Below, in pieces: positions 1 to 26,968 of a stretch of DNA of 63,988 bases. Position numbers and translations under genes: made by a program. The stretch spans positions 1 to 63,988 of the forward strand of contig NZ_JADEVE010000221.1 in NCBI RefSeq assembly GCF_016125955.1, in the 5' to 3' direction. This stretch comes from Acetomicrobium sp. S15 = DSM 107314. GTDB taxonomy: Bacteria > Synergistota > Synergistia > Synergistales > Thermosynergistaceae. Under the pieces are notes generated by a model. That model had not been told where the DNA came from. It made no database searches and worked only from the letters and a program-made list of their open reading frames with translations. Each line of letters starts with the position of its first letter. Within the stretch, counting starts at the first letter, position 1.

Positions 1-133
1 GTATCTGGATAGCCTCAAAACCCCCTTAAAGAAAATTTCATCCAAAAGGGATTGTCGGAGTGGTTGCCCTTTTCGTCAATTGTGGGGAAACAATGAGATT
101 TCGAAGAGATTATTTTTGAGGAAAACCGGGGGG

Positions 134-162
134 TTGACAAAGGCGTTACAGGTGTGTAAGAT
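134..162 (+). promoter_or_regulatory. Promoter of the aro operon
   Basis: TTGACA at 134-139 and TAAGAT at 157-162 are separated by exactly 17 bases, close to the sigma-70 consensus. No other + strand promoter of this quality lies before the shikimate genes. Transcription would begin near 170 and include the leader gene and terminator at 203-437. Confidence 0.8.
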
Positions 163-202
163 ACATCAAAATTGAGATTTTATGGCGGAAGGGGAGCAAA
201 AG

Positions 203-343
203 GTGATCGATCTGCCGCGTAACAGCGGTTCCGCGCATGCATACTTTAACTATTACTTTAGCTACGGCCAGTGGCGATATTATTACGCCAGTGGCCTTCC
301 AATGCGTGGAAATCGATCACCGGCATGCCGAGGCGGTCCATAG
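203..343 (+). CDS. Aromatic-rich leader peptide of the aro operon (46 aa)
   Basis: A short gene starts with GTG at 203, six bases after the strong Shine-Dalgarno AAGGGGAG (189-196), and ends with TAG at 341-343. Codons 14-28 read Y F N Y Y F S Y G Q W R Y Y Y: seven Tyr, two Phe and one Trp in fifteen codons. It lies between the promoter and an intrinsic terminator, in front of aroF and tyrA. This is the layout of leader peptides such as PheL or TrpL, where ribosome stalling at scarce aminoacyl-tRNA prevents termination. An in-frame ATG at 182 has no convincing ribosome site. The attenuation role is inferred; the reading frame, SD and codon run are seen directly. Confidence 0.75.
   Translation: MIDLPRNSGSAHAYFNYYFSYGQWRYYYASGLPMRGNRSPACRGGP
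266..296 (+). promoter_or_regulatory. Leader hairpin downstream of the aromatic codons
   Basis: GGCCAGTGGCG (266-276) pairs with CGCCAGTGGCC (286-296) with one G-G mismatch, leaving a 9-base loop. Its left arm overlaps leader codons 22-25 and its right arm starts at the last Tyr codon, so a ribosome stalled in the aromatic run would melt or block it. A second pairing, ACTTTAGCT (255-263) with AGCTAAAGT (349-357), would be mutually affected. Likely the pause/antitermination part of an attenuator. Confidence 0.6.
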
Positions 344-393
344 AGTAAAGCTAAAGTAGCCTAAGCATACGAGTAACAAGATAAAGTAAAGAG

Positions 394-437
394 ATAGCCG
401 GAGTTCGGTTTCCACATCCGAACCCGGCTATTTTGTT
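394..437 (+). terminator. Intrinsic terminator/attenuator before aroF
   Basis: ATAGCCGG plus GTTCGG (394-408, one bulged A) pairs with CCGAACCCGGCTAT (418-431) around a 9-base loop, and the stem runs into TTTTGTT. It ends only 23 bases before the aroF start, so unless prevented it would stop transcripts before the operon. Together with the aromatic leader peptide it forms a conventional attenuator. Confidence 0.8.
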
Positions 438-459
438 ATATAAAGGGAGGGCATGAGCG

Positions 460-1515
460 ATGAAAAGAGTGGTAGTGAAGATGAGAAAGAGCGCGACGAA
501 ATTGGAAGTGGCTCAAGCGTTGCGGTTGATGGAGTGCAGAAACTTAGAAGCCCGCTTCGTCAATCATCCGGATGGGTGCATGGTAGTTGCGGAGGGGGAG
601 GTAAGGGACCTCTCTTGGCTGGAAGATTTGGCGGGGGTGGAGGAGGTTGTCGAGACCAAATCGGCCTTTCCCTTGGCGAGCCTCGATGTGAGGACGACGC
701 CCACGACAGTTTCTCTCGCACCAGGCGTGTGGATTGGCGGCGGCGAGGTGGCCGTGATCGCCGGGCCCTGTGCCGTGGAGGATAGGGATCAGATTTTGAC
801 GACGGCTGAATCGGTAAAAGCATCAGGCGCCAAGGCTTTAAGGGGCGGGGCATACAAACCCAGGACAAACCCTTATTCGTTCCAGGGCCTCGGAAGCGAA
901 GGCATATCGCTCTTGGAGGAGGCGCGATCTCTCACTGGGCTTCCGATCGTTACGGAAGTTATGGCCCCTGAGGACGTGGAGTGGCTCCTGCCTCACGTGG
1001 ATGTCTTTCAGGTGGGTTCGAGGAATATGCAAAACTTTTCTCTCCTGAAGACGTTGGGCAGGGTGGACAAGCCGGTCTTGCTCAAGCGCGGCATGATGGC
1101 CACCATAGACGAGTGGCTCCAGGCAGCTGAGTACGTATTGGCCGGTGGAAATTCTAACGTCATCTTATGCGAGCGCGGCATACGCTGCTTTGAAAAGCGC
1201 ACCCGTAACGTTTTAGATCTCAGCGCGGTTCCTCTTATAAAATCACTGAGCCACCTCCCCATCGTAGTGGATCCGAGTCATGGCACCGGATGCAGAAACC
1301 TCGTCCCGAGCATGAGCCTGGCTGCGATCGCTGCGGGCGCCGATGGCCTGATCGTAGAGGTTCACCCCAACCCAGAGAAGGCCTTGAGCGACGGCGATCA
1401 GTCTTTGACGCTCTCTGAGTTCGCATTGCTCATGGAAGCCGTGAGACAGCTCGCTTCTGTCCTGCCCGGACGGGCAAAGGAGGAGGTTTTATGCAGCTCC
1501 GCTTCGGTAGCGTAG
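460..1515 (+). CDS. aroF: 3-deoxy-7-phosphoheptulonate (DAHP) synthase, type I with N-terminal regulatory domain
   Basis: Condenses PEP and erythrose 4-phosphate to DAHP, the first step of the shikimate pathway. The 351-aa protein has about 75 N-terminal residues resembling the ferredoxin-like domain of Thermotoga-type DAHP synthases, which mediates tyrosine feedback inhibition. The barrel follows with GPCAVED, GGAYKPRTNPYSFQGLG and DPSHGTG. The start at 460 lies nine bases after GGGAGG; an earlier ATG at 453 is out of frame and only two bases from the SD. It is the first structural gene after the attenuator and overlaps tyrA by 25 bases, so entry into the pathway is probably controlled both by transcription and allosterically (inference from the family). 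Confidence 0.95.
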   Translation: MKRVVVKMRKSATKLEVAQALRLMECRNLEARFVNHPDGCMVVAEGEVRDLSWLEDLAGVEEVVETKSAFPLASLDVRTTPTTVSLAPGVWIGGGEVAVIAGPCAVEDRDQILTTAESVKASGAKALRGGAYKPRTNPYSFQGLGSEGISLLEEARSLTGLPIVTEVMAPEDVEWLLPHVDVFQVGSRNMQNFSLLKTLGRVDKPVLLKRGMMATIDEWLQAAEYVLAGGNSNVILCERGIRCFEKRTRNVLDLSAVPLIKSLSHLPIVVDPSHGTGCRNLVPSMSLAAIAAGADGLIVEVHPNPEKALSDGDQSLTLSEFALLMEAVRQLASVLPGRAKEEVLCSSASVA

Positions 1516-2366
1516 GCGTAGCAGGGGTGGGGCTCATAGGCGGGTCGATATCGCTTCGCCTGCTCCGGGACGGCCTGGCGGACGAGGCGAGGGGTCTGGA
1601 TGTAGACGCCTCGGCCCTCGATTTTGCCCGCTCGCACGGCATCATATCTAATGTTTCTTCTTCTGAGAGTGAATTTATGCGCGGTCTGGAGGTTTTGATC
1701 ATAGCTACGCCGATCGGACAAATGGAGGAACTGAGTCTGAAGCTCATTCCTCACGCAGGAGGCGATCTTAAAGTCGTAATCGACGTGGGGAGCACGAAGG
1801 CAGTCGTGGGAAAGCGGTTAAGCGAGATCTGGGGTGAAATATACGTAGGACTGCATCCCATGGCCGGCAAAGAGCTCGTGGGCCCCCAAAATGCGTCGCC
1901 CGACCTATTCGAGGGCGCCTGCTGTGCCATCGTGCCACAGCCTCCTACTTCTGAAAAGGCTTTATCTATTGCATTTGAGCTCGCCAGGGCTATAGGTGCT
2001 TCTCCCATCCGGATGAGCCCAGAGGAACACGACGCCATAGTAGCGTGCACGAGTCATCTGCCCATGTTTTTGGCCATTGCCCTGTCTGCTGCAGTTGGTG
2101 CCGAAAAGCACCGCCTTCCGCTCCTGCCGAAGCTAGTAGCCGGCGGCTTCCGCGACACAACGCGCGTTGCATCGGGTTCACCCTGGCTTGTTTCCGACGT
2201 CTGGGCCACCAATGCATCTAACATACTTCCGCTCTTGGACAGGGTCATCCAATTGCTCTGCAAAGTTAAGACGTCTTCGCCCGAGGAGATCGAAGCCCTC
2301 GCCCGAGACGCCAAGGCCGCGAGGGAGGAAATCCTCTTGAATGCACCATCGAGGTGGACGATATGA
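1491..2366 (+). CDS. tyrA: Prephenate dehydrogenase
   Basis: Oxidatively decarboxylates prephenate to 4-hydroxyphenylpyruvate, the committed step to tyrosine, in the cytoplasm. The 291-aa protein begins with the dinucleotide-binding motif VGVAGVGLIGGS and carries GLHPMAGKE and ACTSHLPMF, typical of TyrA. There is no chorismate mutase or ACT domain, so it is the short monofunctional form. The ATG at 1491 follows AGGAGG and lies inside the end of aroF. It is the only branch-specific gene in the operon, which fits the Tyr-rich leader peptide. Confidence 0.93.
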   Translation: MQLRFGSVGVAGVGLIGGSISLRLLRDGLADEARGLDVDASALDFARSHGIISNVSSSESEFMRGLEVLIIATPIGQMEELSLKLIPHAGGDLKVVIDVGSTKAVVGKRLSEIWGEIYVGLHPMAGKELVGPQNASPDLFEGACCAIVPQPPTSEKALSIAFELARAIGASPIRMSPEEHDAIVACTSHLPMFLAIALSAAVGAEKHRLPLLPKLVAGGFRDTTRVASGSPWLVSDVWATNASNILPLLDRVIQLLCKVKTSSPEEIEALARDAKAAREEILLNAPSRWTI

Positions 2367-3652
2367 GGCGCATATCGCCTGCGACGGGGGTGAGGGGGAG
2401 GGTCGCCCCTCCTGGCGATAAATCCATATCTCACAGGGCCGCCATATTTGGCGCGCTCTCGTACTCCGGGATCGAAGTGGAAAATTTCTCCCCCGGCGCT
2501 GATTGCGCCAGCACGCTGCGCTGCCTCAAACTGCTCGGTTGCGACGTGGAACGAAAGGGTGGGCACGTGCGTGTGAGTTGCGAGGTTTTACGCGAGCCAG
2601 AAGAGGTGCTCGATGCCGGAAACTCCGGCACCACGGCTCGGTTGTTATGCGGCTTTATAGCGGGAGCACAAGATATATTTGCTGTAATCACGGGCGATTC
2701 CAGCCTCAGGAGGCGTCCCATGGATAGGGTCGCAAGGCCCCTTTTGGCCATGGGAGCCAGCATAACGGGTCGCGAGCACGGGAATAAGCTTCCCCTTGCG
2801 CTTCGTGGGCGACGGCTGTCGGGTGGGGAGCACATCCTTCCCGTGGCGAGCGCTCAGGTCAAGTCGGCGCTGCTTATAGCTGGTCTGTCGGCTCAGGGCA
2901 GCACTACTGTAATAGAACCGTCCCCTACGAGGAATCACACAGAGCTTCTCCTCAATTTCCTCGGTGTACCCATAGAGAGCGAGGGCAACAGGGTTACAGT
3001 TTACCCCTGTTGCGATCTGCCGGGCGGCAAGTGGCGCATCCCAGGAGATTTTTCGTCCGCTGCCTTTTGGATCGTGGCCGCCGCCATATTGCCGGAGTCC
3101 GAACTTCTCATCGAGGGCGTGGGGGTCAACCCGACACGCACGGGGTTGCTTTCCGTCTTGAAGCGCATGGGCTTAAATATAGAGATGAGAGAAAAAGGCA
3201 CTTCAGGCGGAGAGCCCGTAGCTGACATATTGGTAAAGCCCTCGTCCCTCGAGGGGACAAAAGTTACGCCTGACGAGGTTCCTCTCATGATAGACGAACT
3301 GCCGATCCTTGCCGTGGCTGCCGCTCGAGCTAATGGCTTGACGGAGGTGAGGGGGGCCGTAGAACTGCGCGTAAAGGAAAGCGATCGCATTCGCTCAATG
3401 GCCATAGGTTTGAGGAAACTCGGCGTCGATATAGAGGAACTGTCCGATGGATGGAAGATCCGCGGGCCGGCCAATATTGTCGGCGGCAGGGTCAGGTCTT
3501 ACGGCGACCACCGCGTTGCCATGGCTTTGGCCGTGGCCGCTCTATTCTCCGCTGAACCTGTAGAAATAGCAGGCGATGCCTGCGTAGATATTTCATATCC
3601 CGGCTTTTTTGATGTGCTTGAAGGGCTATCTTTAAGGAGAGAGAATTCATGA
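2363..3652 (+). CDS. aroA: 3-phosphoshikimate 1-carboxyvinyltransferase (EPSP synthase)
   Basis: Transfers the enolpyruvyl group of PEP to shikimate 3-phosphate. Family motifs are PPGDKSISHR near the N terminus, DAGNSGTTARLL, and the C-terminal VKESDRIRSM. The length, 429 aa, is normal. I chose ATG 2363 because it makes an ATGA overlap with the tyrA stop and lies six bases from GAGGTGG; a GTG at 2354 is the alternative and adds three residues. It is coupled to aroE by another ATGA overlap. Confidence 0.95.
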   Translation: MRRISPATGVRGRVAPPGDKSISHRAAIFGALSYSGIEVENFSPGADCASTLRCLKLLGCDVERKGGHVRVSCEVLREPEEVLDAGNSGTTARLLCGFIAGAQDIFAVITGDSSLRRRPMDRVARPLLAMGASITGREHGNKLPLALRGRRLSGGEHILPVASAQVKSALLIAGLSAQGSTTVIEPSPTRNHTELLLNFLGVPIESEGNRVTVYPCCDLPGGKWRIPGDFSSAAFWIVAAAILPESELLIEGVGVNPTRTGLLSVLKRMGLNIEMREKGTSGGEPVADILVKPSSLEGTKVTPDEVPLMIDELPILAVAAARANGLTEVRGAVELRVKESDRIRSMAIGLRKLGVDIEELSDGWKIRGPANIVGGRVRSYGDHRVAMALAVAALFSAEPVEIAGDACVDISYPGFFDVLEGLSLRRENS

Positions 3653-4503
3653 TAGATGCGAACACCTCCCTCATCGCCCTGTTGGGAAATCCCATCAGCC
3701 ACAGCTTATCGCCGCGCATGCACATGGCCGCAATTTCCCACCTGGGGCTCAACATCTGCTATCTCGCTTTCTGCGTACCCGAGTCCCGCTTCGAGTCGGC
3801 CTTCTGCGGATTGGAGGCGCTCGGAGCAATGGGCGCCAACATTACCATACCGTTCAAGGAGCGCGCCTTTGCTTTGGTCGATCACTCAGACATCTCTGCT
3901 GAAGCGACTGGCGCCGTGAACACGATAGTATTTGCCGAGAACGGCTCCGTGGGCTACAACACTGACGTAATTGGAATAAAAGAAGCTTTGAAGTCGTTGG
4001 GGCACACGTCGGGGAGCGCCCTGCTTTTGGGCGCTGGCGGCGCCTCGCGGGCGGCACTCCATGTCCTGGCGGAGAGCGGTTTTTCTCCGATATGGATTGT
4101 CAATAGAAGCGAAGATCGCGTCCAGAAGCTCATAAAGGGCCTCAAGAAACGCCTTCCGGATGCTGAAATCGAGGTTTTGCCCTTCGGCAATTTTCCTCCG
4201 TCTCCATCGGTCGTCATAAACGCGACATCGCTCGGCCTGCAGGGCAACCCTTACCCGGAGGGTTTCGTCGATTCTCTCTTGGGCGCGGCGGATTGTGCGA
4301 AAGTGCTGGACCTCGTATATTCGCCCCATGGTGCCACGCCCCTCGTGGATGCCGCCAGAAGGCGCGGCATGGCCGCGATCGACGGGATAGAGGTGCTCCT
4401 TCATCAGGGAGCAGCCGCCTTTGAGCTGTTTACCAAGGAAAAGGCGCCCCTCGACGTGATGCGGCGCGCCATCGAATCGCGAAGCGGAGGCGAAGAGGCA
4501 TGA
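3649..4503 (+). CDS. aroE: Shikimate dehydrogenase
   Basis: Reduces 3-dehydroshikimate to shikimate with NADPH. The 284-aa protein shows the substrate-binding NPISHSLSPRMH, the catalytic lysine region NITIPFKE, the nucleotide-binding GAGGASRAAL, and NATSLG. Start and stop both overlap neighbours by ATGA, indicating tight translational coupling with aroA and aroC. Confidence 0.95.
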   Translation: MIDANTSLIALLGNPISHSLSPRMHMAAISHLGLNICYLAFCVPESRFESAFCGLEALGAMGANITIPFKERAFALVDHSDISAEATGAVNTIVFAENGSVGYNTDVIGIKEALKSLGHTSGSALLLGAGGASRAALHVLAESGFSPIWIVNRSEDRVQKLIKGLKKRLPDAEIEVLPFGNFPPSPSVVINATSLGLQGNPYPEGFVDSLLGAADCAKVLDLVYSPHGATPLVDAARRRGMAAIDGIEVLLHQGAAAFELFTKEKAPLDVMRRAIESRSGGEEA

Positions 4504-5672
4504 CGGCGTTGCGCTTCCTCACGAGCGGCGAGTCTCACGGCCTCGGTTACTTAATCGTTGTCGAGGGACTGCCGGCCGGCCTCGAGGTGAGGCTCGACAG
4601 GGTAAAGGAAGAGTTGGCCAGGCGGCGGAGGGGGTTTGGGCGCGGCGAGCGCATGCGGATCGAGCGCGACCTCTTAGAGATATGGGGAGGGGTGAGGGAT
4701 GGCGTCACGACAGGCGCTCCCGTGGGATTAGCGCTCAAAAACTCCGAATGGGAGCTGTGGAAGTCGGCCCTCGACCCGCAGAAGATCGAGAAGGAGGAGG
4801 CAGAATCGAAAAAGATAACGCGTCCGCGCCCCGGCCATGCGGATCTCTCTGGGGCGATCAAATACAGCCACAGGGACATGAGAAACGTCCTTGAGAGGGC
4901 GAGCGCGAGGGTCACGGCCGCCTGGACGGTAGCTGGCACCCTTGGGCGCTTGCTGCTTGAACTCTTGGGAGTTGAAGTCAGGGGCGCTGTCACCTCCATA
5001 GGCGGTGTATGCGTGGCTCCGCCACAGAGCGAGTCGGAGTGGGCTTTTGCCAGAAATTCCTCTATGGGGTCTCCTCGCCCTGAGGACGAAGAGCTGCTCG
5101 AGAGGGTTGTGAGGTCGGCGATGGAGAGAGGAGACAGCGTCGGCGGGACGTTCGTGATATCGGCCGTGGGCTTGCCGCCGGGCATCGGCTCATATGTCGA
5201 GTGGGACCGACGGTTGGACGGCCGCCTAGCCGCAGCCCTCATGGCTATCCCCGCCATAAAGGGCGTGGAGGCGGGCGACGGCTTTTCTTTAGCGGATCGC
5301 TTGGGAAGCGAGGTGCACGACGAGATCCTTCTCCGCGACGGGGGACTCGCCCGGGCCACGAACAGAGCGGGAGGCCTCGAGGGCGGCATGACGAACGGCG
5401 AGGAGGTCGTCGTCAGAGCGGCCATGAAACCTATACCCACGATTAAAAACCCCTTAAGGACTGTCGACATTGAGACCGGGATGGTTATGACGGCCCATGC
5501 GGAAAGAAGCGACACCTGTGCCGTGCCGGCGGCCTGCGTAGTAGGGGAGGCGATGGCTGCCTGGACCTTGGCGGTGGCGGTCCTCGAGCAGTTCGGCGGC
5601 GATACTGTCGATGAGCTAAAAAGCAGATTTACGCTTTATCGCGAAAGGGCGAAGGGGTTCCTCGATGGTTAG
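4500..5672 (+). CDS. aroC: Chorismate synthase
   Basis: Converts EPSP to chorismate using reduced FMN, the last common step. The 390-aa protein starts with RFLTSGESHG and contains RPGHADLSGAIKY and RASARVTAAWTVAG, the signature regions of the family. ATG 4500 overlaps the aroE stop, and the end overlaps aroKB by eight bases. Length is normal. Confidence 0.95.
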   Translation: MTALRFLTSGESHGLGYLIVVEGLPAGLEVRLDRVKEELARRRRGFGRGERMRIERDLLEIWGGVRDGVTTGAPVGLALKNSEWELWKSALDPQKIEKEEAESKKITRPRPGHADLSGAIKYSHRDMRNVLERASARVTAAWTVAGTLGRLLLELLGVEVRGAVTSIGGVCVAPPQSESEWAFARNSSMGSPRPEDEELLERVVRSAMERGDSVGGTFVISAVGLPPGIGSYVEWDRRLDGRLAAALMAIPAIKGVEAGDGFSLADRLGSEVHDEILLRDGGLARATNRAGGLEGGMTNGEEVVVRAAMKPIPTIKNPLRTVDIETGMVMTAHAERSDTCAVPAACVVGEAMAAWTLAVAVLEQFGGDTVDELKSRFTLYRERAKGFLDG

Positions 5673-7266
5673 GCAAAAGATATTCCTCGGAGGGTTCATG
5701 GCAGCGGGGAAGACGGCAGTAGGCCGGGAGTTGGCGAGGCGGCTTCGCCTTCCCTTCGTCGATACGGATAGCCTGGTAGAGGCGCAGGCGCACATGGAAA
5801 TCCATGAGATCTTTTCCAGGCACGGTGAGGGCGCCTTTAGGTCGCTCGAGGCCAAGGTCGTCGAGGAGGTCTGCTCTTTGGAGGGCGTGATCGTGGGGCT
5901 CGGAGGTGGCGTGCTGGCAAACGACGAGCTAAAGCGCAAGGTATTATCCAGTGGCGTCTTGGTCGTCTTGGATGTGACGCCTGATACCGTCCGCCGCCGC
6001 GTCGAAAATGAGAAGGGCAGACGCCCGCTCCTCGAGAGGGAAGACATAGAATCCCTCATGAGCCGAAGGCAATCGGCATATGCAGAAGCACATCTCCACG
6101 TCAAAACCGACGATCGCTCCGTTGAAGATGTGGCCGAAGAGATCATCGGGGCCTTGAACCTCAGCGAGCCTGAAGACGAGTCTGATTTCCACGTCCTTTG
6201 GGGGAGGACCGAAGGGAGAAGCTATCCTGTCGTCGTAGGCAGAGGGGTCATATCGCGCTACAGAGAGATAGTGCCGGACTTGGATCCGGTGCCACCCTTC
6301 TTAGTGAGCGACTATATGACGGGGGCTCTCTACGCCGATCTCTTGGGTGAGAGAAAGGGGCTCTTTCTCCTGCCCAGGGGCGAGGAGGCTAAGACCCTGA
6401 GGGAGCTCGAAAGGCTTTACGCCGCACTTGCAGAGTGTGGCGTCGACCGCTCTTGCTGGATCATGGCGCTCGGGGGAGGTACGGTGGGAGATCTCGCCGG
6501 CTTCGCCGCGGCTACGTGGATGCGAGGCATAGACGTGGTGCAGTGTCCTACCACGCTCTTGGCGCAGGTCGATAGCTCCATAGGCGGCAAGACCGCTATA
6601 GATCTTCCCCAAGGCAAGAACCTCGTGGGGGCGTTCCATCAACCGAGGGCCGTCGTTGCAGATGTGGACTTTCTCCAGACCCTCCCCGAGAGGGAATATC
6701 GGCAGGGGTTGGGAGAGGTCGTGAAATATGGCCTCGGCGAGGATTTTCCCTTCTTTCGCTGGCTTTTGGACAACGTCTTTAGGCTGATTCAAAGGGATCC
6801 CCTTTGTCTTGAAGAGGTCGTGAGGCGGTGCATTGCGATGAAGTTGGCCGTCGTGGAGGCCGACGAGAGGGAGCAGGGCGACCTTCGCAGTAGACTCAAT
6901 TTAGGGCATACCGTTGCCCATGCCTTGGAGGCCTCGTCCGGCTATGGCGGGTGGAAGCACGGTGACGCCGTAGCTGTGGGCCTGGTCGTGGCTACTCGCC
7001 TGGCGTGCATGGTGGGCGAATGCGGCGAAGATCTCTTGGGCGACCTCGTCAACCTCTTGCGCTCTTTGGGATTGCCCACGGCGCCGGATCGGCCATGGGA
7101 GGAGATCGTCCCTTACTTGATGCGCGATAAGAAGTTCCGCCGCGGCAGACCTCGCTTGGTCATACCGAGGGAGGGAAAGGTTTGTTCCGTGCGCGACGAT
7201 ATATCGCTTGAGCTGTTGGAGCGCGCCTATAACGATGTGCGCGCCAGGGAGGCGGCGGTCTTATGA
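5665..7266 (+). CDS. aroKB: Shikimate kinase / 3-dehydroquinate synthase fusion
   Basis: One 533-aa polypeptide carries two pathway enzymes. Residues about 1-170 are shikimate kinase, with the P-loop GFMAAGKT (residues 10-17) and GLGGGVL. Residues about 180-533 are 3-dehydroquinate synthase, with the NAD-binding GGGTVGDLAGF, DSSIGGKTAID, and zinc-ligand regions GLGEVVKYG, LNLGHTVAHALE and HGDAVAVG. These are steps 5 and 2 of the pathway, so the fusion does not join consecutive reactions. AroKB fusions are known in some other bacteria. Both halves look intact. Confidence 0.93.
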   Translation: MVRQKIFLGGFMAAGKTAVGRELARRLRLPFVDTDSLVEAQAHMEIHEIFSRHGEGAFRSLEAKVVEEVCSLEGVIVGLGGGVLANDELKRKVLSSGVLVVLDVTPDTVRRRVENEKGRRPLLEREDIESLMSRRQSAYAEAHLHVKTDDRSVEDVAEEIIGALNLSEPEDESDFHVLWGRTEGRSYPVVVGRGVISRYREIVPDLDPVPPFLVSDYMTGALYADLLGERKGLFLLPRGEEAKTLRELERLYAALAECGVDRSCWIMALGGGTVGDLAGFAAATWMRGIDVVQCPTTLLAQVDSSIGGKTAIDLPQGKNLVGAFHQPRAVVADVDFLQTLPEREYRQGLGEVVKYGLGEDFPFFRWLLDNVFRLIQRDPLCLEEVVRRCIAMKLAVVEADEREQGDLRSRLNLGHTVAHALEASSGYGGWKHGDAVAVGLVVATRLACMVGECGEDLLGDLVNLLRSLGLPTAPDRPWEEIVPYLMRDKKFRRGRPRLVIPREGKVCSVRDDISLELLERAYNDVRAREAAVL

Positions 7267-8039
7267 GGCCCCTGCCCAAGGAGCCCGTATATTTGCGGGA
7301 CAGGGTGATAGGGGCAGCTCGCCCGGCGATCTGCATACCGCTCGTCGCAACGGATAGAGAAGATGCGCTGGAAGAAGCGAAAAACATGGTCTCCCTCTCG
7401 CCCGATGTGGTGGAGGCGAGGGCGGACTTTTGGAGCGAATCCTCGAGCTTAGATGCCGCCTGTGCCCTTCTTTCTGATGTCAGGCAGATCTTGGGCGACA
7501 TCCCGCTATTGTTGACGTGCAGGAAAAAAGAAGAGGGGGGATACAGGCATATCGATCAAGATAAAAGGATTTCGCTCTACGAGAGGGCCGTTGCGATGGG
7601 CATTGCTGACGCTGTCGACGTGGAGCTATCCTGCGGCCAAGAGGTCATCGGCAGAGTGAAGGAGGTTGCCCGCTCGTATGGCGTGGCCCTCGTGGTCTCC
7701 TTCCACGACTTCGATGCCGTTCCTCGCAATATGGAAATCGTGGAAGTGTTGGAAAGGGAGTTCGAGGCTGGGGCGGACATCGCAAAGGTGGCCGTCATGA
7801 TAAATTCGCACGAAGAGGGGCTTGAGCTGCTCGCCTCTACGCTCGAGGCGCGGCGCAGATACACGAAGCCTATAGCGGCAGTTGCCATGGGCGAGATGGG
7901 CGCTTTCTTGCGCCCTTTGGGATGTTTTTTCGGCTCAGACCTGACCTTTGCCTCCTCCGGCAGGGCATCCGCCCCGGGGCAGCCGCCATTTGAGGTGATT
8001 AAGCGTTACATGGACATGTTGTTTGGCTTTGTGGAATAG
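7263..8039 (+). CDS. aroD: 3-dehydroquinate dehydratase, type I
   Basis: Dehydrates 3-dehydroquinate to 3-dehydroshikimate through a Schiff base. The 258-aa protein matches the type I family: VEARADF near residue 45, the catalytic His in VSFHDF, the Schiff-base Lys in AKVAVM, and AMGEMG. It completes the seven-step set in the operon. The start overlaps aroKB by ATGA. Its last 34 bases overlap the convergent livM gene on the other strand. Confidence 0.92.
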   Translation: MRPLPKEPVYLRDRVIGAARPAICIPLVATDREDALEEAKNMVSLSPDVVEARADFWSESSSLDAACALLSDVRQILGDIPLLLTCRKKEEGGYRHIDQDKRISLYERAVAMGIADAVDVELSCGQEVIGRVKEVARSYGVALVVSFHDFDAVPRNMEIVEVLEREFEAGADIAKVAVMINSHEEGLELLASTLEARRRYTKPIAAVAMGEMGAFLRPLGCFFGSDLTFASSGRASAPGQPPFEVIKRYMDMLFGFVE

Positions 8040-25947: not shown

Positions 25948-26275
25948 AGCACATCCTCCTCCTTCACCCCGAACATCGTCCTGTTCCTTTATAGTGCAGT
26001 TAGACGCTTAGCTCATTTTATCACTTATCTTGAAGGACTATCGCAATATATGGCTTTTCATGTAGTCTTTGCCAGCCTGCACTCTTTTTGGTTGTGGTGC
26101 GAAAAGAAATTTTCGAGCGATCAAGGTTGCACGAAAGGCGAGTTTATGCTATTTACATAAAAGTACAAAACCTCCGAGCCTGTTTTGCCTAAGGGCGATC
26201 TGTCTATGGCGTCAGGCCGATAGGGCGTCTTTGGAAACGGAGATGTCCTCCCGTGTTTGAAAAGGAGGGAACAAT
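25948..26275. other. Intergenic region between divergent SIMPL and response-regulator genes
   Basis: About 330 bases without a gene. A weak + promoter fits TTGCAC (26127-26132), 17 bases, TATTTA (26150-26155), serving the response regulator. No strong repeat or structured RNA is apparent. Confidence 0.4.
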
Positions 26276-26968
26276 ATGCCTTCTCTTGCGGTTCTCATCG
26301 CGGACGAAGATCCGATGTTGAGAGCCCTTTATGCGGATTACCTTAAAGGCATCCCGGGTTATGCGTTAGCCGCGGAGGCCGATTTTGGAAGAGCGCTTGA
26401 CAGCGTCCTGAGGGCGCAGGCCATAGACCTCGTATTGTTGGACATCTTCCTGAAAGGGTTCGGCCAGGTTGAGGGACTTCGCCGGACGAGGGCCCTTTAT
26501 CCCAGAGTCGACCTGATCGTCCTTTCCGAGGGAAGGGATCCGGATGTAGTGCGCGGCGCCCTGTGTCAAGGGGCTTTTGATTACCTTATAAAACCCTTTA
26601 CGTTTCAGAGGTTCAAGGCTGCCCTCGAAGCTTACCGAATTTACAATTTGGGTCTGACGCAGCGCAAGGCAGCGTGGCAGCAGGAGGAGCTGGACTGTCT
26701 GGTGAGGTCATCAATGAGAGCCCGCACGGTTTGTCCCGTACTCGTCCCGCCCAAGGGAGTACAGGTTAAACTGTTAAACGATGTCATGTCGCTGTTGCGC
26801 ACCCTCGACAAACCGGTTTCAGCAATAGATTTGGGAAACAAACTTAAGATATCCCGTCCCACGGCCCGCAGGTATCTGGAGCACCTCGTCGATTCAGGGG
26901 TGGCGGAGGTGGAATATGCTTTTCGTAGGGTAGGTCGCCCCGTCAAACTTTATCGATTAAAGATATGA
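26276..26968 (+). CDS. Response regulator, CitB/DcuR type, without adjacent kinase
   Basis: A 230-aa two-component regulator. The receiver domain (1-125) has acidic DED at 10-12, phospho-acceptor Asp56 in LVLLDIFLKG, Ser in VLSEGRD and Lys in YLIKPF. The C terminus (about 170-230) is a winged-helix domain with KISRPTARRYLEHLVDSG, as in CitB/DctR/MalR regulators of organic-acid uptake. Its SD AAAGGAGGG is strong. No histidine kinase lies nearby; the next gene is an aldehyde dehydrogenase. Confidence 0.88.
   Translation: MPSLAVLIADEDPMLRALYADYLKGIPGYALAAEADFGRALDSVLRAQAIDLVLLDIFLKGFGQVEGLRRTRALYPRVDLIVLSEGRDPDVVRGALCQGAFDYLIKPFTFQRFKAALEAYRIYNLGLTQRKAAWQQEELDCLVRSSMRARTVCPVLVPPKGVQVKLLNDVMSLLRTLDKPVSAIDLGNKLKISRPTARRYLEHLVDSGVAEVEYAFRRVGRPVKLYRLKI

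Follow-up and report, generated by a model that had tools for sequence, protein, structure and literature searches.

A predicted ribosome-mediated attenuator with Tyr, Phe and Trp control codons upstream of the shikimate trunk operon in Synergistota

Leaders carrying aromatic codons upstream of DAHP synthase genes have been described in other bacteria. In the aroR-aroF system of Corynebacterium glutamicum, a Phe-Tyr-Phe leader precedes the DAHP synthase gene and responds to Phe limitation (Neshat 2014, as relayed in passages of PMC11802643 and PMC4046766). The Acholeplasma element uORFC-13-1, which lies before aroF, consists of a terminator, a further paired element, and a predicted uORF containing one or more Phe codons (PMC8632094). 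In addition, the sections of Stav et al. 2019 drawn on here present two shikimate-linked uORF candidates with Phe and Tyr (Fig. 6b) and name the Thermovirga lienii chromosome, NC_016148.1, among the five genomes studied (PMC6429828).

Here we describe an element from Acetomicrobium sp. S15 that is very probably, judging from its sequence and that of its relatives, a ribosome-mediated transcription attenuator for the whole shikimate trunk operon plus tyrA, with a response to starvation that we infer. A first-pass annotation of the same DNA had contrasted control of the trunk with known examples that mostly control a branch (pheA, trpE). Control of the trunk as a whole still separates the element from those examples, but a leader before a DAHP synthase gene was already known from aroR (PMC11802643) and uORFC-13-1 (PMC8632094).

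The aroF leader and its operon in Acetomicrobium sp. S15

The window, by which we mean the whole stretch of DNA analyzed, is one 63,988-nt contig (NZ_JADEVE010000221.1) of a 2.44-Mb genome assembly; the promoter, leader elements, and genes described below are all on its forward strand. The first operon of the window (460 to 8039) has the order aroF-tyrA-aroA-aroE-aroC-aroKB-aroD, with overlapping genes. NCBIfam matches identify aroF (DAHP synthase of the TIGR01361 family, 460 to 1515), aroA (EPSP synthase, 2354 to 3652), aroE (shikimate dehydrogenase, 3649 to 4503), aroC (chorismate synthase, 4500 to 5672), the aroB portion of an aroK-aroB fusion (shikimate kinase/3-dehydroquinate synthase, 5665 to 7266), and aroD (type I 3-dehydroquinate dehydratase, 7263 to 8039). 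Support is weaker for the aroK portion, which has a weaker family match, and for tyrA (prephenate dehydrogenase, 1491 to 2366), the family matches of which fall below the NCBIfam cut-offs. The operon therefore holds the complete shikimate pathway plus tyrA, as the first-pass annotation had proposed. The closest named relatives of its aroF are from Synergistota (Acetomicrobium hydrogeniformans, Thermovirgaceae, and strain L-13). Far downstream in the window, at 26160 to 26283, is a molybdenum/tungsten cofactor riboswitch (RF01055, 66 bits).

The annotated promoter (134 to 162) is present, with a −35 box TTGACA (134 to 139), a 17-nt spacer, and a −10 box TAAGAT (157 to 162). A repeat of ∼120 to 140 bp (window 1 to 139) has its 3′ end at the −35 box. 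Five further copies of this repeat, 79 to 94% identical, are found in the genome; several copies lie directly 5′ of promoter-like sequences, one of them ahead of a tRNA-Ala, and some are close to contig ends.

Downstream of the promoter, a Shine-Dalgarno sequence, GGGGAG, and a GTG start codon (192 to 205) open a leader ORF of 46 codons that runs from GTG203 to TAG343 (203 to 343), is predicted to encode MIDLPRNSGSAHAYFNYYFSYGQWRYYYASGLPMRGNRSPACRGGP, and has its frame kept in relatives. The predicted start is GTG203 and not ATG182, because the former has a Shine-Dalgarno sequence and a distance to the downstream hairpin, termed P, like that of most homologous leaders: 21 of 25 start 57 to 75 nt 5′ of P with a purine-rich Shine-Dalgarno sequence, and the window leader starts 63 nt from it. 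Codons 14 to 28 (242 to 286), YFNYYFSYGQWRYYY, include 10 aromatic codons among 15 (7 Tyr, 2 Phe, and 1 Trp), which agrees exactly with the leader gene, aromatic content, and 7:2:1 ratio first reported. If codons were drawn at the local aromatic frequency, a run of 15 would hold 10 or more aromatic codons with a binomial probability of 1.2e-8; the maximum in other long frames of the window is 8 of 15.

Folding and comparison place hairpin P, annotated earlier as a strong hairpin, at 266 to 296, inside the ORF, with three Tyr codons (278 to 286) in its loop. Its predicted energy is −19.3 kcal/mol (z −5.6), and none of 200 shuffles was as good. P is a candidate RNA polymerase pause hairpin and a candidate organizer of the pairing that surrounds it. 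Folding also predicts an intrinsic terminator stem-loop at 395 to 430 (regions 3 and 4, region 3 being the 5′ arm and loop at 397 to 415), followed by an interrupted T tract, TTTTGTTAT, at 431 to 439. The stem has a predicted energy of −21.2 kcal/mol (z −5.8; 0/200 shuffles as good), and the terminator lies within a few bases of the 394 to 437 given at first pass. An automated terminator scan, which is limited to loops of at most 8 nt, did not report the stem-loop at 395 to 430, the predicted loop of which is 9 nt.

Between P and the terminator lies region 2 (306 to 324), an antiterminator strand located inside the ORF (codons R-G-N-R-S-P-A) and supported by duplex tests and compensatory changes. 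Region 2 has two alternative partners, the terminator 5′ arm and loop at 397 to 415 or region 1. The latter comprises region 1a (202 to 211), the start-codon region, which pairs with 312 to 321 in the duplex test, and region 1b (229 to 239), which pairs with 301 to 311 in the predicted fold; the resulting 1:2 pairing (202 to 211 and 229 to 239 with 301 to 321) encloses P. As predicted from sequence, the 1:2, 2:3, and 3:4 pairings follow the logic of a classical attenuator. A predicted translated leader ORF with a ribosome-binding site stands between the promoter and the first gene; control codons for the operon end product are clustered, and are kept in 25 distinct relatives; an intrinsic terminator (395 to 439) precedes the first structural gene, as it does in 25/25 leaders; and an antiterminator (306 to 324 with 397 to 415), with its 5′ strand 3′ of the control codons, excludes that terminator. 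The initial attenuator reading is thus upheld by the comparison, except that it missed the start-region (1:2) pairing and the antiterminator, the latter being the 2:3 pairing and not the hairpin at 266 to 296.

Homologous leaders and their distribution

Homologous leaders were collected from 183 genomes of the order and from GTDB contigs, which yielded 25 distinct leaders, the one in the window included. The promoter, Shine-Dalgarno sequence, P, region 2, terminator, and reading frame through the aromatic codons are kept in 25/25, and for each listed relative a TTGACA box was located 124 to 199 nt ahead of P. Alignment of the regions upstream of aroF in relatives had been set beforehand as the check on a translated leader, and in the 25 distinct leaders frame, Shine-Dalgarno sequence, and aromatic run were all kept; the case named as refuting it, retention of the hairpins with loss of the frame, was not seen in any of the 25 homologous leaders, all of which keep the frame through the aromatic codons. 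Moreover, the P loop differs in length among leaders in whole codons only (2, 3, or 4), and P and region 2 are three codons apart in all leaders except two, in which 1 nt is missing after the control codons, such that the frame is shifted and the region 2 RNA is retained. The leader homolog of T. lienii is an annotated CDS, Tlie_1900, deposited as a hypothetical protein.

Tyr, Phe, and Trp codons are all present before region 2 in 25/25 aroF leaders, and therefore shortage of any one of the aromatic amino acids could open the trunk. The trunk operon is, on this sequence evidence, better read as sensing Tyr, Phe, and Trp than Tyr and Phe alone; the Tyr and Phe codons of the original proposal stand, with Trp to be added. 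At the aligned position 5 codons before P, all 22 relatives compared have a Tyr or Phe codon (TAT, TTC, or TTT). A TTTA(G/C)C box directly 5′ of P (window 257 to 262) varies hardly at all, and its Phe codon TTT is found in 22/22 compared relatives. Pairing of this box with the spacer between stop codon and terminator was weak (325/20,000) and was dropped; no partner for the box was found.

The alternative pairings were compared between cognate and non-cognate strands of the 25 leaders. For the 2:3 duplex, cognate strands had a mean of −25.0 kcal/mol versus −20.9 kcal/mol for non-cognate strands, with 0/20,000 permutations as good, while a control with region 2 reversed gave 1003/20,000. Cognate and non-cognate values for the 1:2 duplex were −39.1 and −32.9 kcal/mol, and those for the 1:2 duplex limited to the start region were −24.5 and −20.2 kcal/mol (0/20,000 permutations in each case). 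Compensatory changes gave the same picture. In P, 106 of 117 cells are paired, with 13 distinct arm pairs and 12 two-sided changes versus 3.9 in shuffles (0/5000); in the 2:3 pairing, 210 of 230 cells are paired, with 27 two-sided changes versus 10.2 (0/5000), where the columns for compensatory changes were set by hand and the permutation and shuffle tests alike ignore the relatedness of the leaders. Examples are GTGGAAA:TTTCCAC to GTAGAAA:TTTCTAC and GGCCAGTGG:CCAGTGGCC to GACCGTTGG:CCGACGGTC. These comparisons indicate that the 1:2 and 2:3 pairings coevolved among the 25 Synergistota leaders.

A covariance model built on the 81-nt core of the element found it in 38 of 188 Synergistota genomes, from 17 genera. 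The element is present in 35 of the 36 genomes with a high-identity aroF (E below 1e-105), and in the single exception the contig starts 190 bases before the aroF match. Genomes with only another DAHP-synthase lineage gave no match to the model, save two in which aroF is missing from the assembly. By this survey, the element tracks one aroF lineage. In many genomes with other DAHP-synthase lineages the leaders are short and plain, with Tyr/Phe codons and no hairpin P, for example MMNVSFFAAEYYYFYFFGASRKVILCC. The one same-genus genome among those examined lacks this aroF and its leader, and is possibly that of an aromatic auxotroph. In family f6, the shikimate genes of which are split, second copies of the element precede aroA-aroC-aroK, and in some genomes a copy precedes aroE; in the aroA and aroE copies, P with its loop Tyr codons is retained, as is the region 2 pairing. 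In T. lienii, the operon from aroF to aroB and its attenuator lie on plasmid pTLIE01 (CP003097.1), the sole copy found in that genome; the element was not found on the chromosome, NC_016148.1.

Outside the phylum, the covariance model returned nothing convincing over 73 aroF loci (best E 0.014). Unrelated, aromatic-rich short ORFs with Shine-Dalgarno sequences occur before aroF in Deferribacterota, Nitrospinota, Acidobacteria, Anaerolineae, and a Woesearchaeota MAG. Viral copies were considered and discarded: 14 exact DNA pattern matches in IMG/VR are attributable to chance, and the best model E was 0.064. In the Acetomicrobium sp. S15 genome itself, a classical short Trp leader, MTVKAVRLNWWWRTQ, is located upstream of trpE, so the organism probably makes use of ribosome-mediated attenuation; no leader was noticed upstream of pheA in the same genome.

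A proposed switch and its alternatives

The pairings point to the following model. With ample charged aromatic tRNAs, the leader ribosome would run through the ORF, region 2 would be paired back to the start region around P (1:2), and the 3:4 terminator would stop transcription before aroF. When charged tRNA-Tyr, tRNA-Phe, or tRNA-Trp is short, the ribosome would stall on codons 14 to 28, inside or just 5′ of P, where it would cover region 1b and/or open P, and a following ribosome could sit on the start codon (region 1a). Region 2, thus freed, would pair with the terminator 5′ arm and loop as these emerge (2:3) and RNA polymerase would read through. We infer several parts of this model: that it responds to starvation, in which order the structures fold, that polymerase pauses after P, and what the following ribosome does. 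P ends 11 nt before U307, with G308 next. The E. coli his pause hairpin has the same 11-nt spacing, and by this analogy P may also pause the polymerase.

Footprint folding, a crude equilibrium calculation, gave probabilities of 0.69 for the 1:2 pairing and 0.18 for the 2:3 pairing in the free window RNA, and of 0.00 and 0.87, respectively, with a ribosome stalled on the first Tyr codon. The fold switches with the ribosome in this position because the footprint covers 229 to 239; region 1b lies under a ribosome with its A site on that codon (242 to 244), and masking it flips the predicted fold. With the ribosome at the stop codon (341 to 343), region 2 is not clearly covered and the equilibrium probability of 2:3 is 0.77; termination by default therefore has to come from folding kinetics or from 1:2 forming again once the ribosome is released. 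For the f6 relatives and some others, 2:3 is the favored equilibrium structure also in ribosome-free RNA. In most relatives the leader start site itself serves as region 1 and a clear switch needs a second ribosome at the start codon, which, across the relatives, raises the mean probability of 2:3 from 0.44 with one stalled ribosome to 0.72. The calculation suggests that queuing of ribosomes contributes to the switch. A stronger version, in which gating is mainly by trailing ribosomes on the start codon and not by direct masking, would be a subcase of the attenuator. It draws on that increase, on the overlap of region 1 with the leader Shine-Dalgarno sequence or start codon in about 21 of 25 leaders, and on the beginning of most aromatic runs at codons 13 to 19, which leaves space for one more ribosome. 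Nevertheless, one stalled ribosome already covers region 1b in the window, region 1 lies elsewhere in Acetomicrobium and in one other leader (L109), and the calculation is as crude as stated; we consider this version possible but somewhat doubtful.

The conserved peptide could instead act by TnaC-like nascent-chain arrest, with the motif GQWR(Y/F)Y(Y)ASG stalling the ribosome on a free aromatic amino acid. The G, Q, W, R, A, S, and G residues around the Tyr/Phe positions are indeed highly conserved, and Acetomicrobium retains the Ser despite an AGT-to-TCT change. However, the conserved codons are the arms of P and their third positions are nearly fixed, Tyr is swapped for Phe at the aromatic positions, and the aroF leaders of f6 read GLWLYYYATG. 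Further, the core is DQGYYYYPLV or DRWYYYADG in the aroA and aroE copies versus GQWRYYYASG in aroF leaders, with P still pairing. Thus, the RNA fold and Tyr loop are kept despite a changed peptide core, and therefore the RNA and its aromatic codons appear to be selected and not the peptide. An arrest-peptide regulator was rejected on these copies, in which the peptide is not conserved independently of RNA structure, and we regard it as very improbable; the best explanation for peptide conservation among the aroF leaders is that it comes as a side effect of hairpin P. Alternatively, the leader RNA might bind a protein or metabolite (as a riboswitch, T-box, or TRAP-like RNA) with the ORF incidental. 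The three conserved RNA elements with covariation would fit such a role, and some other amino-acid operons have T-box or protein-controlled terminators. Against it, the frame is kept in all relatives, P-loop lengths differ by whole codons, and the recurring aromatic runs are free in codon choice. In addition, no Rfam riboswitch or T-box family matches the attenuator in the window even at E up to 10, and the relatives have no such match above gathering score at E up to 0.1. A T-box riboswitch in particular was dismissed, with no match at gathering score or at E up to 10 and none in relatives, and a binding RNA of any of these kinds seems to us a slim prospect, slightly slimmer even than an arrest peptide.

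Comparison with known attenuators

No Rfam, Pfam, or NCBIfam family matches the leader element, and we class it as a new family within the ribosome-mediated attenuators, set apart from aroR and uORFC-13-1 by their descriptions; the Stav et al. candidates may overlap with it. The element would place the whole aromatic trunk under the control of three charged tRNAs, and it accompanies the pathway genes where the operon has been split, in a phylum, Synergistota, for which little regulatory work was found in the literature searched. The alignments provide a three-state model with exact bases, and conserved "peptide" residues that are explained by RNA structure counsel caution in claims of arrest peptides. 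The missing Rfam family and the deposition of the leader ORF as a hypothetical protein are flagged here. We advance only tentatively the full combination, in which three tRNA charging states would be read through one leader that gates the entire trunk, the strand locking the antiterminator would be the ribosome-binding site of the leader itself, queuing would act on the switch, and the module would have been copied to each fragment at the operon split.

Compared by description, C. glutamicum aroR is likewise a leader before a DAHP synthase gene, but it belongs to another phylum, and the passages cited report three aromatic codons, with Tyr without effect, and describe no P hairpin (PMC11802643, PMC4046766). 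uORFC-13-1, also compared by description, is a prediction confined to Acholeplasma and environmental sequences (PMC8632094). The Stav et al. study, in the sections drawn on and again by description, covered the T. lienii chromosome, whereas the present element is on plasmid pTLIE01. Like E. coli trpL and pheL, and like the organism's own trpE leader, the present element has an ORF with control codons and mutually exclusive terminator and antiterminator structures, and would need no protein factor. Unlike trpL and pheL, its ORF has 46 codons versus about 15, an unusual length that was remarked upon at first pass and that arises because P and region 2 lie inside the ORF. It also differs from them in carrying control codons for three amino acids, in placing its antiterminator strand within the ORF, with about 17 nt left to the stop codon, in its extra in-ORF hairpin P, in a region 1 that overlaps its own start site, and in its predicted control of a whole trunk pathway.
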